Positions 51,668 to 58,184 of a stretch of 64,000 nucleotides of DNA are shown here, one piece after another. Each line of letters begins with the position of its first letter. Position 1 is the stretch's first letter. The stretch spans positions 1-64,000 of the forward strand of contig JAKITD010000004.1 in the NCBI GenBank assembly GCA_021648265.1, given 5' to 3'. The stretch comes from Flavobacteriaceae bacterium (GTDB lineage Bacteria; Bacteroidota; Bacteroidia; Flavobacteriales; Flavobacteriaceae). Position numbers and translations under genes: made by a program. The notes beneath the pieces are model-generated. The model was not told where the DNA came from and ran no database searches. It saw nothing but the letters and a program-made list of their open reading frames with translations.

Positions 51668-52324
51668 ATGGAAAAACAACAACTAACATTAGAACATAAT
51701 TACAGATCTTCAAATTTAGTAACAGGTAAAAGCCCTGTTATCATAATGCTTCACGGATACGGAAGTGATGAAAACGACTTGTTTTCTTTTGCTACTGAAT
51801 TACCTTCAGAATACACCATCATCTCCTTAAAAGCACCTTATGCAATGCAACCCTACGGAAACGCTTGGTATGCCATTCATTTTGATAATGTAGATGGAAA
51901 ATGGAGTGATGATGCTCAAGCAATAGAATCTAGAGATTTAGTTGCCAAATGTATTGATGAAGTTATTGAAAAATACCAAGTAAACACAAACAATGTGACC
52001 CTTTTAGGTTTTAGTCAAGGAACCATATTAAGTTTTGCGGTAGCATTAAGTTATCCTGAAAAAGTAAAAAATGTAATTGGTTTAAGTGGTTATATTAATG
52101 AAGCCATCTTTAAAGAAAACTACGCTCAAAACGATTTTAATAACTTAAGCGTTTATACTTCCCACGGTAATGAAGACCAAGTGATTCCTGTGGATTGGGC
52201 TCGTAAAACACAACCTTTTTTACAAAACTTAGAGATAGATTGTGAATATTCGGAATTTCCTGTGGGTCACGGTGTAGCTCCTCAAAATTTTTATGCGTTG
52301 AAGAATTGGTTGGAAAAGCATTAG
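51668..52324 (+). CDS. Alpha/beta hydrolase (phospholipase/carboxylesterase family)
   Basis: PVIIMLHGYGSDENDLFSFA, nucleophile elbow LLGFSQGTILS, D and H near HGNEDQVIPV / EFPVGHGV. Confidence 0.93.
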   Translation: MEKQQLTLEHNYRSSNLVTGKSPVIIMLHGYGSDENDLFSFATELPSEYTIISLKAPYAMQPYGNAWYAIHFDNVDGKWSDDAQAIESRDLVAKCIDEVIEKYQVNTNNVTLLGFSQGTILSFAVALSYPEKVKNVIGLSGYINEAIFKENYAQNDFNNLSVYTSHGNEDQVIPVDWARKTQPFLQNLEIDCEYSEFPVGHGVAPQNFYALKNWLEKH

Positions 52325-52449
52325 ACGATAATGTTTTAGCTACTGAACATTGTTAGACTGTATTGGAAGTTACTTTATCAACGGTTTGTATAAGAATAGT
52401 AGCCGATTTCGGAAGTAGAATTTTTCAATTTATCACCAAATTTTATGCG

Positions 52450-52510
52450 TGCTACAATGTTTGTATCTACTATTATTTCGGCTATTATTTTTATACATTG
52501 TTGTGTTTTC
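52450..52510. repeat. Left boundary hairpin of the R-M cassette (contains TATACATTGTTGT at 52492-52504)
   Basis: gctACAATGTttgtat...tttatACATTGTTGTg; encodes the last MTase residues HNNV*. Confidence 0.6.
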
Positions 52511-54179
52511 GTACATTATTTTCCGTTCTATTGATAGCGTTGGCAAAGACATACTCTTTTGCAATTTTCGGCTTGTGCTGTTGGCTTTGAGCGAATTGCA
52601 AATGTGTATGGCTTTCAGGTTGGGAGTATTCAGTTTCAAAAATTTCGTTTATCTGGTCAATATAAGTTCGACTTTGCTCTTTTCTATATTCTTGGAACAA
52701 ATTTAAAATTCTATTTACAGTTTTACTATTAAGTAAAGAAAGGTTTAATACTTTTGCTTTATTTAAGTCGTTTGGTTCAAATTTCTTTAATCCATTTCCA
52801 TATTCCCGTCTGTTATCACTAAATATTTCTTTTGCTATATCTGTCAGTAAATATGCAAAAAGTAAATCGGGATTAATCGTAGAGAATAAATCTGATTGTT
52901 TTAAATATACACAATGAAATGTCGTTAAATTGGATATTTCGGCTTCATTTCGTATAAATTTCAATCCATTTCGGTTAAAAACTGAAACCCAAATGGGTGC
53001 AGGTGGACGGTTTTCCAATGAATACCATATTTTTCTACTTTTTGTTAAATATTTTTCATTTACACCTTCTTCAATTCCTTTTTTAATATATTCATCAACT
53101 GCATTGTTATTTGATTTTACTGCGTCAAATAAATATGTTAATTCATCATTTTTTTCAAGTTGCTTATAATCATTTGAAGTAAAAAACACATTCTTAACGT
53201 CTTTTGCTTTACAAATGCAAGGGAGTAAATTATCAGATTGAATTGAGAATTCTTTTGCTTTAGATGGTCTGAAAGTAAAATAATCATTTGCTCCTGTAGC
53301 AATTCCTCTAACCACTTTTGCATATTTTGAAAAAGGGACAAGGTTTTTGTATTTATCGGAGTTTTGAACTTGATAATATTTACGCCATTTTATATTTGGG
53401 TCTAAATCTGTAGGTTTATATGTGAACTCTCCTTTTAATTTTGGATAAAAATTAATGTAACTTACTATTTTTGTTAAATCTGATTTTGATTTTATTGTAG
53501 AAATGTTGATTTCTTTATCATTATTATCTTTGGCTAATAAAAGGATAGATGCGGTGGTTAAAGCGTCATCAAAAACATTTTCTTTAAAATCAATTATAAA
53601 CAAATGTCTTAACGTGTTTGTTTTAACAAGGTATTCCTTGACCAATTTCCCATAATCAGAATTTAGAAATTCAGAAGGAATAATGTAAGCCATCCTTCCA
53701 TTTGGTGCTAATTGGTAAATTGATTTTAAGAGAAAAAGAGTATATAAGTTTGTAAAACCATTAAACTTAAATTTTAATTTATTTTCGATTTCTTTTAGAA
53801 TATTTTTATTATCGTAATCGTGAAATTTAAAATAGGGAGGATTACATATAATTCCATCATATTCATTTGACCAATCATTAAACATATAATCTTCAAGGTT
53901 TAATGAAACATTGGAATTGACATTAAAGTATGATTGGGCTTCTTTAAAAATGGTTTCATCAATATCGAAACCTTTAATATTTAGTTTAGGTTTCTTTTTG
54001 AGAAGGTTTCTTGAAAAAATACCTAAACCAAAAGCAGGTTCTAAAACTGTTTTTAGTTTTTTGTTTCCAATTAACCAATCAGACATTAAATCAGCAATAG
54101 TTTCAGGTGTAAAAAATTGGGCGAATTTTTTACGGTGTAAAAGACTGATTTTTTTAGTATATATTTTTTCTAATACCAT
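52491..54179 (-). CDS. N6-adenine DNA methyltransferase, type II R-M (gamma-type, N-terminal catalytic)
   Basis: KKFAQFFTPETIADLMSDWL, VLEPAFGLGIFSRNLL (motif I), YDGIICNPPYFKFHD (motif IV NPPY), TRD-like C-terminal region. Confidence 0.92.
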   Translation of the reverse strand: MVLEKIYTKKISLLHRKKFAQFFTPETIADLMSDWLIGNKKLKTVLEPAFGLGIFSRNLLKKKPKLNIKGFDIDETIFKEAQSYFNVNSNVSLNLEDYMFNDWSNEYDGIICNPPYFKFHDYDNKNILKEIENKLKFKFNGFTNLYTLFLLKSIYQLAPNGRMAYIIPSEFLNSDYGKLVKEYLVKTNTLRHLFIIDFKENVFDDALTTASILLLAKDNNDKEINISTIKSKSDLTKIVSYINFYPKLKGEFTYKPTDLDPNIKWRKYYQVQNSDKYKNLVPFSKYAKVVRGIATGANDYFTFRPSKAKEFSIQSDNLLPCICKAKDVKNVFFTSNDYKQLEKNDELTYLFDAVKSNNNAVDEYIKKGIEEGVNEKYLTKSRKIWYSLENRPPAPIWVSVFNRNGLKFIRNEAEISNLTTFHCVYLKQSDLFSTINPDLLFAYLLTDIAKEIFSDNRREYGNGLKKFEPNDLNKAKVLNLSLLNSKTVNRILNLFQEYRKEQSRTYIDQINEIFETEYSQPESHTHLQFAQSQQHKPKIAKEYVFANAINRTENNVRKHNNV

Positions 54180-54181
54180 TA

Positions 54182-55276
54182 TTAAAAATCAGTTATGTTT
54201 AATAATGATGTTAGACTATCTATATCCAAATATGCTGTACCTTTCTCAAAACTAACATAAAACAATAATCTACCTCTTCCCATTTCTCGTCTAACACTTT
54301 TGTGTTCAGGTTCAATTATTTTATATGCGACTTGATTTGTGTTTCTGGTATTAATTTTAACCGTAGTTTTATTTTGATTTTTTATATCTTGACTTATTTC
54401 ATAATAATCCCCTTCTTTTTCAGGTTCTGTTAGTAAGGTTAGAATGTTCTTGAAAGAAATACCATAAGATTTATCGAAAAATACTTGAAAATAGTAATGT
54501 GGGACATCAAATGTTTCAGCCCATTTATAAACAACTTTTACATCCTCAATTTTGGGCGTTATACTTAAATAATCTCTTTTTTGAACAATAATAATATTGT
54601 CTTTTAACTCTTTGAAAAGAAGTGATAATTCTTGCAACCTTTCTGTTGCTTTCCAACTTGGTCTTCTAAAACTAATTGAGGTTATCGTTTCAGAATTGAT
54701 ACTATTTAAAATATCAATGAAATGTTTTTTATTTGGGTGTTCAAGTAAGTCTGTAAAATTTTCAAGAATTTTATCTTTTACTAATAATGCTTGTTCAAGA
54801 TGAGTTGCAGTTCTATCCTGCATTTCTTGTTCGTATTTATCTATCAGAAATGCACTTGACCTAATTTCTAAACCTGCAATCGCCTTTTTGACATAATCCG
54901 CTATTTCAGAATGTGGAATATTACTTATGTCATAATCAAGGTTTATATCAAAATCTTCTTTCTTGAAAATAAGGAGGTCTGGTCGTTTGCCAATTGTATC
55001 TAATTCATCCTGAAATTCATTATAGAATTGGTCAAAACCTTTTTCTCCCGCAACAATATCGTCTGATTTTCCATATCTAACAGCAACATAGTTTTTAGAA
55101 GTTTCATTAATTGCTCTAAAGATTAAATCTTCCGCCCAATCTCCTTGCTCTTTGTTACTAATGAACATTGAAGATGCTTGAGTAGGTGGTGAAGTCCTAT
55201 CTCTCGGTATTGAAAAATCAACTATTGTTTCTGGAATAAGTTTAGTTAATTCCCTTAATTCATTAAAGTATGTCAT
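54182..55276 (-). CDS. Putative type II restriction endonuclease (possibly AccI-like)
   Basis: Located between C-protein and MTase, overlapping the C gene by 4 bp. [15 protein letters not shown] and [13 protein letters not shown]...[10 protein letters not shown] are compatible with a PD-(D/E)xK-like core. Family assignment is from memory of AccI-type enzymes. Confidence 0.65.
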
Positions 55277-55566
55277 ATGTTTTTACCGTATTTTATTTCC
55301 TGTTCTGCAACTTTTAGTATTTGAATTGCTTGATTTTCATTTTTAATTAAGTCATATACTTTATTTGCCAACCACAGAGTTTCTAATTCATTGTAAGGGA
55401 AATTGAAGATTTTACTAATGGAAACTAAATGCTCTCTTTTAAGAACTTTTTGGTTTCGTTCAATCTTACTTAAAAAACCATCTCCAACATTTAGTTTAGA
55501 AGCAAGTTCTCGTTGTAACATTCCTTTACTTTCTCGTAATTCTTTTATTTTTTGTCCAATTGTCAT
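55273..55566 (-). CDS. XRE-family HTH controller protein (C protein) of the R-M system
   Basis: [52 protein letters not shown]. Confidence 0.92.
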
Positions 55567-55574
55567 CTTACCTT

Positions 55575-55625
55575 ATTTGACTTGACTTAATTTGGTCAAA
55601 TGTAAGAAAAATTTTCGAGTTTCAA
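55575..55625 (-). promoter_or_regulatory. C-gene promoter and putative C-box
   Basis: Dyad ATTTGAC (55575-55581)/GTCAAAT (55595-55601). On the minus strand TACATTTG (55604-55597) fits TAnnTTTG, with TTG 18 bp further upstream (55625-55623). Confidence 0.6.
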
Positions 55626-55733
55626 TCTGTGAGTTGGAAAGATTTTACTCTTTTATTTTTTAGTGTTGGAATTGAGCATTGGCAAAAAAATAAACGTGTA
55701 AAATGTGTGGATGGCTTTTTTCGGGTATGAAAC

Positions 55734-55789
55734 ACAACGCAAGTATATCATCAGTTTCGCTTATCGATATTGATGATATACACTGTTGT
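55734..55789. repeat. Right boundary hairpin of the R-M cassette (contains TATACACTGTTGT at 55777-55789)
   Basis: ACAAC gcaa GTATATCATCA gtttcgcttatcgatat TGATGATATAC act GTTGT; 11-bp perfect inner stem plus 5-bp outer stem. Confidence 0.75.
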
Positions 55790-55904
55790 AAAGTTAGATT
55801 AAAAAAATAAGAAAGTCAAGTGGTTTTAATAAGTATTAATAAGTAATTTCCTTAATTTAAGAATGCTATTGATCATTCTTCAGAAAAAATTGGAGACCTT
55901 ATTT

Positions 55905-55985
55905 AAACTACATTGAAGGATACATTAATGAAGAAACTTGATGAACTCTATTTTTCGATTTTTGGTTAAAATATAATCTAAGGTT
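55905..55985 (-). pseudogene. Relic of the 3' end of a paralogue of the gene at 57666-58184
   Basis: Minus-strand reading DYILTKNRKIE|(frameshift)HQVSSLMYPSM* matches EYYVTKDRKIEFHQVSSLMYPSL* of the 57666-58184 product. Confidence 0.75.
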
Positions 55986-55987
55986 TT

Positions 55988-56150
55988 AATTGGCTTTAAG
56001 TTATATTTTAAAGAAAACTATGCCAAAAACGATCTTAGTGTTTTAAACATATATACTTCCTACGAAACTAAAAATCAAGTAATTCCTGTGGGTTGGACTC
56101 GTAAAACGTAGCCTTTTTTTTTTACAGAACTTAGGGATTGATTGTTACCT
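55988..56150 (+). pseudogene. Relic of the 3' part of a paralogue of the alpha/beta hydrolase at 51668-52324
   Basis: Reads FKENYAKNDLSVLNIYTSYETKNQVIPVGWTRKT*PF vs FKENYAQNDFNNLSVYTSHGNEDQVIPVDWARKTQPF in the intact gene. Confidence 0.85.
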
Positions 56151-56165
56151 CATTTGAAAGCAATA

Positions 56166-57590
56166 TTATATAATTTCCATTGCTTTATTAGTTATTAACT
56201 TCCAAGCTTCTTTAATATGATTTTGATTTACATTCGTTTGTCCAATTGACATTCTTAACGTATAGGTTCCTTTAACTTTTGTATGTGTCAAATATATTTT
56301 ACCCGTATCATTTAACTTTTGTAAAAGAACTTCGTTTATTTTATTGAGCTCTTCAATATCGCTGAATCCTTGAGGCTTAAAATGAAAACACACTAAATTA
56401 ATATTACGTGGTACTACAAGTTTAAAATTAGTTGATTTCACTATTTCATTTTCTAACCACTTCGCTAATTCAATATGATATCTAAGTTTGTTCTGTAATT
56501 CTTCTAAACCATAATAACGCATTACAAACCAAAGCTTTAAAGATCGAAACCGCCTACCAAGAGGAATACCCCAATCACAATGATTACTAACCATACCATC
56601 TGTATTTGTTTTGAGATATTCAGGTAGAACCTCAAAAGTATTGACTAAAGCATTTTTATCTTTTACAAAATAAATTGAACAATCAAAATTTGTAAACAAC
56701 CATTTGTGTGGGTTAAAAACGAAACTATCTGCTTTTTCTATTCCTTTAATTAAATTCTGGTATTCAGGTAATAACAAAACAGAACCTGCATAAGCTGCAT
56801 CTACGTGAAGCCATATATTAAATTTTTCAGCAATTTCAGCAATTTCATTTAACGGATCTATCGCTGTAGTTCCAGTAGTTCCAATAGCAGCAATAATACA
56901 GAGCGGTTGATAACCATTTTCGATATCTTGTTTAATAGATTGGAGCAATAAATCGGGTCGCATTCTTAACACATTATCTGTCTTAATTTTTATTACATTC
57001 TCTTTTCCGATTCCTGCTATTTTAGTTCCTTTTTCAATGGATGAATGAGTTTCTTCAGAGCAATAGACACGAAAGTTTGTAAACCCTTTAAAACCCTCCT
57101 GATTTATTTTGTAATGAGATTTTTGCTCCCTTGCAGTTAAAATAGAAGCTAAAGTTGCTGATGAAGCTGAATCCTGAATTACTCCAGTCCAGTTTTTTGG
57201 AATTCCTAGTGCATTTTTAAACCATTCAGTCATTCTTTCTTCCAGTTCAGTAGATGCTGGTGAGGTATCCCATTTCATTCCTTGTACACCAAGTGTAGCT
57301 GTTAGCATTTCGGCTAATATAGATGGAGGGCTTGTGTTGGCTGGAAAATATGCGAAAAAATTTGGACTTTGCCAATGCGTAATTCCTGGCATAATAATTT
57401 TTTTAAAATCATCGAAAATAGTTTCAATATCTTCGCCTTGAGAAGGAATATTATCTTCTATTTGATTGTATATTTCCTTAGGCAATACTTGAGATTTTAC
57501 TGGGTAATCTTCCACATTATCCATATAATCTGCCATCCAATCAACAAACTGGTGGGCTTGTTTTCGAAACTCTTTTGATTTTATATCCAT
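56166..57590 (-). CDS. Pyridoxal-dependent (group II, aromatic-L-amino-acid-like) decarboxylase
   Basis: GITHWQSPNFFAYFPANTSPPSILAEML, SASSATLASILTARE, HVDAAYAGSVLLLPEY, FNPHKWLFTNFDCS PLP site. Confidence 0.93.
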   Translation of the reverse strand: MDIKSKEFRKQAHQFVDWMADYMDNVEDYPVKSQVLPKEIYNQIEDNIPSQGEDIETIFDDFKKIIMPGITHWQSPNFFAYFPANTSPPSILAEMLTATLGVQGMKWDTSPASTELEERMTEWFKNALGIPKNWTGVIQDSASSATLASILTAREQKSHYKINQEGFKGFTNFRVYCSEETHSSIEKGTKIAGIGKENVIKIKTDNVLRMRPDLLLQSIKQDIENGYQPLCIIAAIGTTGTTAIDPLNEIAEIAEKFNIWLHVDAAYAGSVLLLPEYQNLIKGIEKADSFVFNPHKWLFTNFDCSIYFVKDKNALVNTFEVLPEYLKTNTDGMVSNHCDWGIPLGRRFRSLKLWFVMRYYGLEELQNKLRYHIELAKWLENEIVKSTNFKLVVPRNINLVCFHFKPQGFSDIEELNKINEVLLQKLNDTGKIYLTHTKVKGTYTLRMSIGQTNVNQNHIKEAWKLITNKAMEII

Positions 57591-57665: not shown

Positions 57666-58184
57666 TTACAATGATGGGTACATCAATGAAGAAACTTGAT
57701 GAAATTCAATTTTTCGATCTTTAGTAACATAATACTCTAAAATCATTTCTCCCCAATAACGACCATCGGTAAAGTCGACCTGGATCCATTTGTGGTTTAG
57801 AAACTTTAGCTTGTTTATTTTCATATCCCCTTTCATTCCTTCATAAGGTATTAAAGTATTGTTTCCTTTTTTAAGATTTTGATCGTAGATATATTCTGAA
57901 ACAAAATTTTCTATATCTTTTGCTTCATAACCTAAACTTTCAATATAAGACATGGCATTTTCATTACCTTGTAATGTGAAATAATTGATATCTGAAATTT
58001 CATTAGACAGTTTTTCAATAGAGTCGTTTAAAACTTTAAAATCTTTCTTATATTTTTTAATCTTACTTCGTTGGGATTCAATTTTATTTTCTTGCTTTTC
58101 AAATATTTTCTTTTCATTCATATACTGAAATATCACAAACAGTAAAGCAAAAAAGAATAGGTACATAAAAAAGGAACGTTTCAT
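57666..58184 (-). CDS. Hypothetical membrane-anchored protein with coiled coil
   Basis: N-terminal TM, coiled coil KKIFEKQENKIESQRSKIKKYKKDFKVL, C-terminal domain ending EYYVTKDRKIEFHQVSSLMYPSL. Confidence 0.75.
   Translation of the reverse strand: MKRSFFMYLFFFALLFVIFQYMNEKKIFEKQENKIESQRSKIKKYKKDFKVLNDSIEKLSNEISDINYFTLQGNENAMSYIESLGYEAKDIENFVSEYIYDQNLKKGNNTLIPYEGMKGDMKINKLKFLNHKWIQVDFTDGRYWGEMILEYYVTKDRKIEFHQVSSLMYPSL

Follow-up and report, generated by a model that had tools for sequence, protein, structure and literature searches.

Chromosomal (super)integrons, as in Vibrio cholerae, and class 1 integrons combine an IntI-related integrase and an adjacent docking site with one-directional arrays, in which each gene is followed by a folded 3′ site of the 120-bp class, with crossover at G|TT and complementary cassette boundaries. 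The flavobacterial system described here shares these traits and differs in an integrase that lacks the I2 insertion, carries an extra N-terminal domain and points into the array, in cores that do not read RYYYAAC/GTTRRRY, and in many dispersed promoter-bearing docking sites. In Treponema integrons (PMC3607928), intI is likewise transcribed toward attI in the cassette direction; this likeness is one of orientation, and the remaining differences from (super)integrons set the two apart as well. Like CALINs, the locus studied here and an array in the sister genome G001 (contig G001:C11) contain attC-like sites but lack a linked integrase; unlike them, each is headed by a conserved promoter and docking hairpin, and an integrase lies elsewhere in the genome. 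The "integron-like" subgroup of tyrosine recombinases (PMC8138268) comprises simple Xer-like enzymes close to IntI, as do those found here, whereas that source is not known to link its insertion-less members to cassette arrays. By anatomy and recombination footprint the present system behaves as an integron; the absence of the IntI-specific domain and of canonical cores places it outside the strict definition, and it would best be termed an integron variant.

Integrons are held to owe single-strand recombination to an innovation, the I2 helix, and the I2 insertion is reported to be essential in IntI1; as its deletion kills IntI1, direct proof is missing (PMC7790495). IntegronFinder 2.0 reported one complete integron in Bacteroidetes, that of Salinibacter ruber (PMC9024848). 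A literature search for integrons of Bacteroidota and Flavobacteriaceae, with preprints and most subscription journals outside its coverage, returned no description of arrays of the kind reported below.

The window, a stretch of 64,000 nucleotides from a Flavobacteriaceae bacterium, contains a type II restriction-modification (R-M) operon that the first-pass annotation had proposed as a cassette between two related hairpins. Site recurrence, boundary complementarity, platform alleles and integrase-array adjacency support this proposal, and the operon is very probably one cassette of an integron-like system with a promoter-bearing platform and an IntI-like integrase acting in trans. The features of the locus are as follows.

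51668-52324 (+): carboxylesterase, chromosomal flank (Abhydrolase_2; genus synteny)
52352-52379 (-): platform tail (GATAAAGTAACTTCCAATACAGTCTAAC), the right junction of array and chromosome; recurs at other arrays
52380-52502 (-): attC-like folded site of 123 bp, core AAC...GTT (nhmmer E 1e-25; CM R1 122.8 bits)
52382-55737 (-): whole cassette, 3356 bp, with C protein, AccI-type endonuclease, methyltransferase and its own attC-like site
52491-54179 (-): type II N6-adenine-type methyltransferase (Pfam Eco57I 1e-15)
54182-55276 (-): AccI-family restriction endonuclease, full length (PF09545 E 2.9e-173, 1-362/366)
55273-55566 (-): small HTH regulator, C protein-like (HTH_19/HTH_3; PADLOC Control_protein 3e-6)
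55597-55604 (-): perfect TAnnTTTG -7 box (TACATTTG) in the cassette leader, read from the sequence
55734-55789 (-): platform docking hairpin, attI-like or short attC-like, with 40 homologous copies
55788-55823 (-): predicted platform promoter, TTGAC (55815-55819) plus TAACTTTAC (55788-55796), directed into the cassette
55979-56145 (+): degenerate second esterase 3′ end (~79% over 113 bp)

Three genes occupy the interval, as first read, and form a complete AccI-type R-M set: a C-type HTH protein, an AccI-family endonuclease and an Eco57I-type methyltransferase. The last of these also matches PADLOC MTase_II (3e-238) in an alignment reaching residue 522 of 562, its final ~40 residues being encoded by the cassette end. 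A second conserved stretch of ~110 bp lies 5′ of the attC-like site in several unrelated cassettes (L035 9714-9770, L036 8762-8627, L037 6941-7034, L045 7900-8026, and G001:C11 at 15161, 24232 and 57639); in the window (52510-52640) it coincides with those ~40 residues. The -7 box in the leader follows the Bacteroidota promoter consensus TAnnTTTG and is probably the R-M cassette's own promoter. An AccI homologue (61% identity) in a different genus (G153) had no detectable flanking sites within the 4 kb examined.

The cassette's site is an imperfect hairpin that overlaps the final methyltransferase codons. The left dyad ACAATGT...ACATTGT described earlier is present (52454-52501) but constitutes merely an inner piece of this 123-bp hairpin, whose bottom strand has a DNA fold z of -3.7. 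Across 46 aligned sites, compensatory changes affected 12 of the 15 inner pairs, and 94.2% of stem cells were paired against 27-40% in slid controls; 109 changes were two-sided and two one-sided. G-U pairs were nearly absent from these 111 changed cells, a pattern that fits a DNA hairpin rather than RNA. A.C mismatches conserved in the top strand correspond to T.G in the bottom one, and at 6/6 sites tried it was the bottom strand that folded better, by a small margin at some. Sites diverge down to ~60% identity with compensatory changes; their core ends are AAC in 57/57 and GTT in 53/57, and the canonical attC consensus is absent (GTTRRRY in 8/57, RYYYAAC in 4/57), so that the hairpins were correctly described as unlike canonical attC cores.

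The right hairpin of 56 bp was found exactly as annotated, and its folding beats all 200 shuffles (z -4.5). The 13-mer shared by the two hairpins occurs as TATACATTGTTGT at 52492-52504 and as TATACACTGTTGT at 55777-55789, and within one mismatch it is confined to these two places on both strands of the 64 kb. The two hairpins are related, as had been claimed, but unequal: the left one is a long attC-like site, and the right one is a short hairpin associated with a promoter in a platform unit spanning 55734-55823. Matches to this platform number 22 in this genome, including one weak opposite-strand echo of the window hairpin, and 15 in G001. Nearly all of the 40 aligned copies run through CGTT or a variant of it into differing cassette starts, with the putative docking-hairpin crossover G|TT falling between 55738 and 55737 in the window. 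In 20/20 platform loci with a detectable folded site, that site is downstream of the platform and oriented alike. The attC model recognises the platform hairpin weakly (in sister copies), and the hairpin can therefore be read as short attC-like or attI-like. The conserved boxes, TAnCTT in 38/41 platform copies and a TTGAC-like box in 31/41, with a TTG-to-TA spacing of 23 in 22 of the 24 copies measured, are promoter-like and predict promoter activity. At the opposite end, the same tail terminates other arrays (L011, L112, L115 and L142), and the tail at the window locus is common to G001. Locus L137 is a degenerate empty platform, in which the hairpin is followed by the tail and the cassette is absent.

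With 52420-52640 as a DNA query against 19 genomes of the genus, matches were found at 12 places in this genome, and the many matches in G001 were packed onto a single strand of one contig. An iterative profile search of that contig, G001:C11, located 27 sites from 10.3 to 60.4 kb, all on the plus strand. The intervening genes of this ~50-kb array are unrelated, mostly on the same strand and often concerned with defence, among them SwaI-like, MvaI/BcnI-type and NgoFVII-type R-M systems, a GmrSD/HEC-05 protein, UzuA and a NACHT protein. In the G001 array, an IS3-type element (L031 8184-9430) separates the platform from the first cassettes. By covariance model, this genome has 44 sites and G001 has 65, which together with the platforms bracket unrelated genes in one direction; the recurrence that the first-pass annotation had asked for is thereby confirmed. 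Tandem unrelated genes that all point one way, each followed by an attC-type site, are the arrangement that characterises integrons.

In an integron cassette, the bases after G|TT are complementary to those before AAC of its own site, because both halves were joined in the circular cassette. In 25 cassettes of G001:C11, start and own end matched at 6.16 of 8 positions, compared with 2.34/8 for mismatched cassettes and 2.27/8 within the site; 0/20000 permutations reached 6.16, and the complementarity was seen in 23 of the 25. A repeat with 40 cassettes from named Bacteroidota gave 5.93 versus 2.48 (0/20000 permutations). This within-cassette R″/R′ complementarity, together with a fold that pairs in the single strand, is the signature of attC sites. 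The R-M unit of the window obeys the same boundary rule (start GTTGTGTTTC, end GAAAACACAAC), and this match sets the cassette limits at 52382-55737: the cassette starts with TTGTGTTTCATACC, its R″ ends in ...GAAAACACAAC, and GTTGTGTTT pairs with rc(AAACACAAC).

Comparison with relatives revealed cassette replacement at shared platforms. The carboxylesterase and the gene at 57666 (g57666) are conserved neighbours across the genus, and in at least 13 relatives they are adjacent, platform and cassette both being absent. At the same locus, platform and right junction recur in G001 with a different cassette, a regulator plus a membrane protein, whose ends also match. The empty allele is consequently either "no platform" or "platform, other cassette"; alleles without the R-M genes exist, as anticipated, but they do not carry exactly one bare copy of the hairpin. 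At all 7/7 platform loci shared by this genome and G001 the cassettes differ. For the six beyond the window locus, the upstream flanks are 91-94% identical and the downstream cassettes differ in all six, with a contig or locus end leaving ~120 bp of downstream sequence for comparison in two. One MarR/pirin unit occupies different platforms in the two genomes; this is a weak, single case, because assemblies may misjoin at repeats. Draft assemblies, probably from metagenomes, represent this genome (G000) and most of its relatives. Only in this genome is the interval from the platform to g57666 occupied by the esterase copy at 55979-56145 and a PLP decarboxylase gene (56166-57590), both absent from G001 and possibly a product of recombination between two alleles.

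A trans-acting recombinase had been suggested for the hairpins, and an IntI-like candidate was identified at G000:C37:1969-3075 (L048). It is one of four tyrosine recombinases in this genome, the others being XerD, XerC and a transposon type. L048 scores higher with the integron-integrase model (integrase_gron, 174.6 bits, below the model cut-off) than with XerD (160.8 bits) or XerC, and its predicted structure folds like a tyrosine recombinase and matches XerA and IntI4 best. The I2 insertion is absent throughout the Bacteroidota group, in which the Box I-Box II spacing is 90-96 (91 in most, L048 included), compared with 133 in 7/7 measurable IntI and 96-98 in Xer; in the alignment, L048 has a gap opposite residues 207-245 of IntI4 (2A3V). 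In the tree, the IntI references form a separate clade (100/99). The Bacteroidota sequences fall outside it and outside Xer and do not resolve as a single clade; XerC and XerD are separate genes in this genome. A natural I2-less integrase family tied to folded sites makes the I2 question directly testable. Relative to IntI, these enzymes bear an extra N-terminal domain, which they perhaps use for folded sites. A HARP identity considered for this domain found no support: HARP was the only Pfam match for the protein itself but was sub-threshold (E 0.13), and by structure Foldseek placed SMARCAL1 HARP (4O66) at rank 23 with E 1.1. A PDB profile search returned no credible match.

The contig of L048 stops at a docking site ~39 bp past the stop codon, and the integrase-linked array of this genome is therefore not visible. 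In relatives, an attI-like layout of stop codon, 20-60 bp, G|TT and then cassette was found (L052-L057, L153, L162, L166, L167 and L172). At ~24 named Bacteroidota loci, relatives of L048 lie directly upstream of arrays in shared orientation: each of the 66 site matches shares the strand of the integrase, and 64 of them lie downstream of it. These matches come from Flavobacteriaceae, Cytophagales and others, and loci from outside Bacteroidota gave zero site matches in this search. G012 and Flavobacterium sp. MAG CSMAG_225 have identical integrases; by such named relatives the family is Flavobacteriaceae and the genus probably Flavobacterium.

Among 151 sampled Flavobacteriaceae genera, sites were detected in 134 (E <= 1e-6) and the integrase in 104 (E <= 1e-60); just 3 of the 17 site-less genomes had an integrase match. 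Some genera have sites and no detected integrase, and a few integrase-less genomes have 1-4 sites. Three closed genomes carry 93-112 sites each. Their arrays of ~65, 75 and 76 kb follow immediately on the integrase, and a large second array, unlinked to any integrase, is present in two of them (G032:C1 2211806-2261064 and G132:C1 1875050-1903931). Compared with the one complete integron reported from Bacteroidetes, arrays here reach ~100 sites per genome, and sites are present in most Flavobacteriaceae genera sampled.

In the following scheme, we infer from sequence the reaction chemistry, which strand is chosen, the action in trans and the activity of the promoters. A platform consists of a predicted promoter, a docking site in the form of a short hairpin, and a tail of ~30 bp; a cassette is a gene or operon ending 3′ in a 123-bp site able to fold as a single strand. 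The recombinase encoded on G000:C37 would act in trans and, at G|TT, join the docking site with the folded bottom strand of the cassette site, so that the cassette ends up one-directional behind the platform promoter and remains exchangeable. The same integrase would serve both the long array and the ~20 dispersed platforms. The system is probably an integron of a second kind, widespread across Flavobacteriaceae and other Bacteroidota, with an I2-less integrase, folded single-stranded sites and a superintegron-scale array plus ~20 platforms served in trans. Dispersed platforms would provide a new way of placing captured genes, many of them for defence, under promoters at many chromosomal positions.

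Other explanations have to be weighed against the integron-like reading. Points that count against that reading are the loss of I2 from the integrase, the slim strand-folding differences at some sites, the draft state of most assemblies, the end of the L048 contig at its docking site, and the sites present in genomes or genera with no detected integrase. Cassettes might be moved by XerC/XerD or another recombinase, the IntI-like gene being a passenger; both Xer proteins are present in this genome, and the dispersed platforms have no linked integrase. However, site counts in the genus are 0-4 where Xer-type enzymes occur without the IntI-like gene and 6-65 where that gene is present (Mann-Whitney p 1.6e-4 or 2.5e-4 according to how G011, an exception with 13 sites and an integrase fragment only, is treated), and in many genomes the IntI-like gene directly neighbours a docking site and array, which makes this explanation very unlikely. 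Somewhat less likely again is that the repeats are inert and that ordinary homologous recombination in the flanks or repeated hairpins exchanges accessory genes. The 91-94% identical flanks at shared platforms would permit such exchange, and an esterase fragment is duplicated at the window locus, but this process does not predict a base-exact complementarity of start and own end, sites that diverge so far with compensatory changes, or the rarity of sites where the integrase is absent.

A transposon or MITE family, whose flanking mobile repeats carried the R-M operon, deserves still lower credence. The dispersal of the platform in 15-22 copies indicates that something spread it, whereas the flanking elements here are of two different kinds, cassettes of any length have both boundaries precisely at G|TT and no visible target duplication, and up to 27 sites stand head to tail in arrays. 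Almost no weight can be given to the hairpins as transcription terminators or RNA elements: the 123-bp sites are foldable and lie 3′ of genes, but changed stem cells contain nearly no G-U pairs, an Rfam search of the window gave zero matches, the platform hairpin follows a promoter and not a gene, and the boundary complementarity speaks against this role.

Several further observations concern the integrases. A small cysteine-rich protein (CKICSNLIVGR..FCS..C) is encoded beside the integrase, in divergent orientation, in at least four genomes (L080 1487-1861, minus; L051 1020-1394, minus; L052 2000-2380, plus; L053 697-1074, minus) and may be part of the system. Four alphaproteobacterial recombinases (L192, L194, L195 and L197) have an equally short Box I-II spacing (91-92), and three of them end in an SPxD-type C-terminus; model R1 found zero sites at these loci, and the enzymes may belong to a related system that uses different sites. 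The closed family genome G119 has ten integrase-group matches, eight of them with near-identical scores (304-aa frames), which looks like a multiplying recombinase family.
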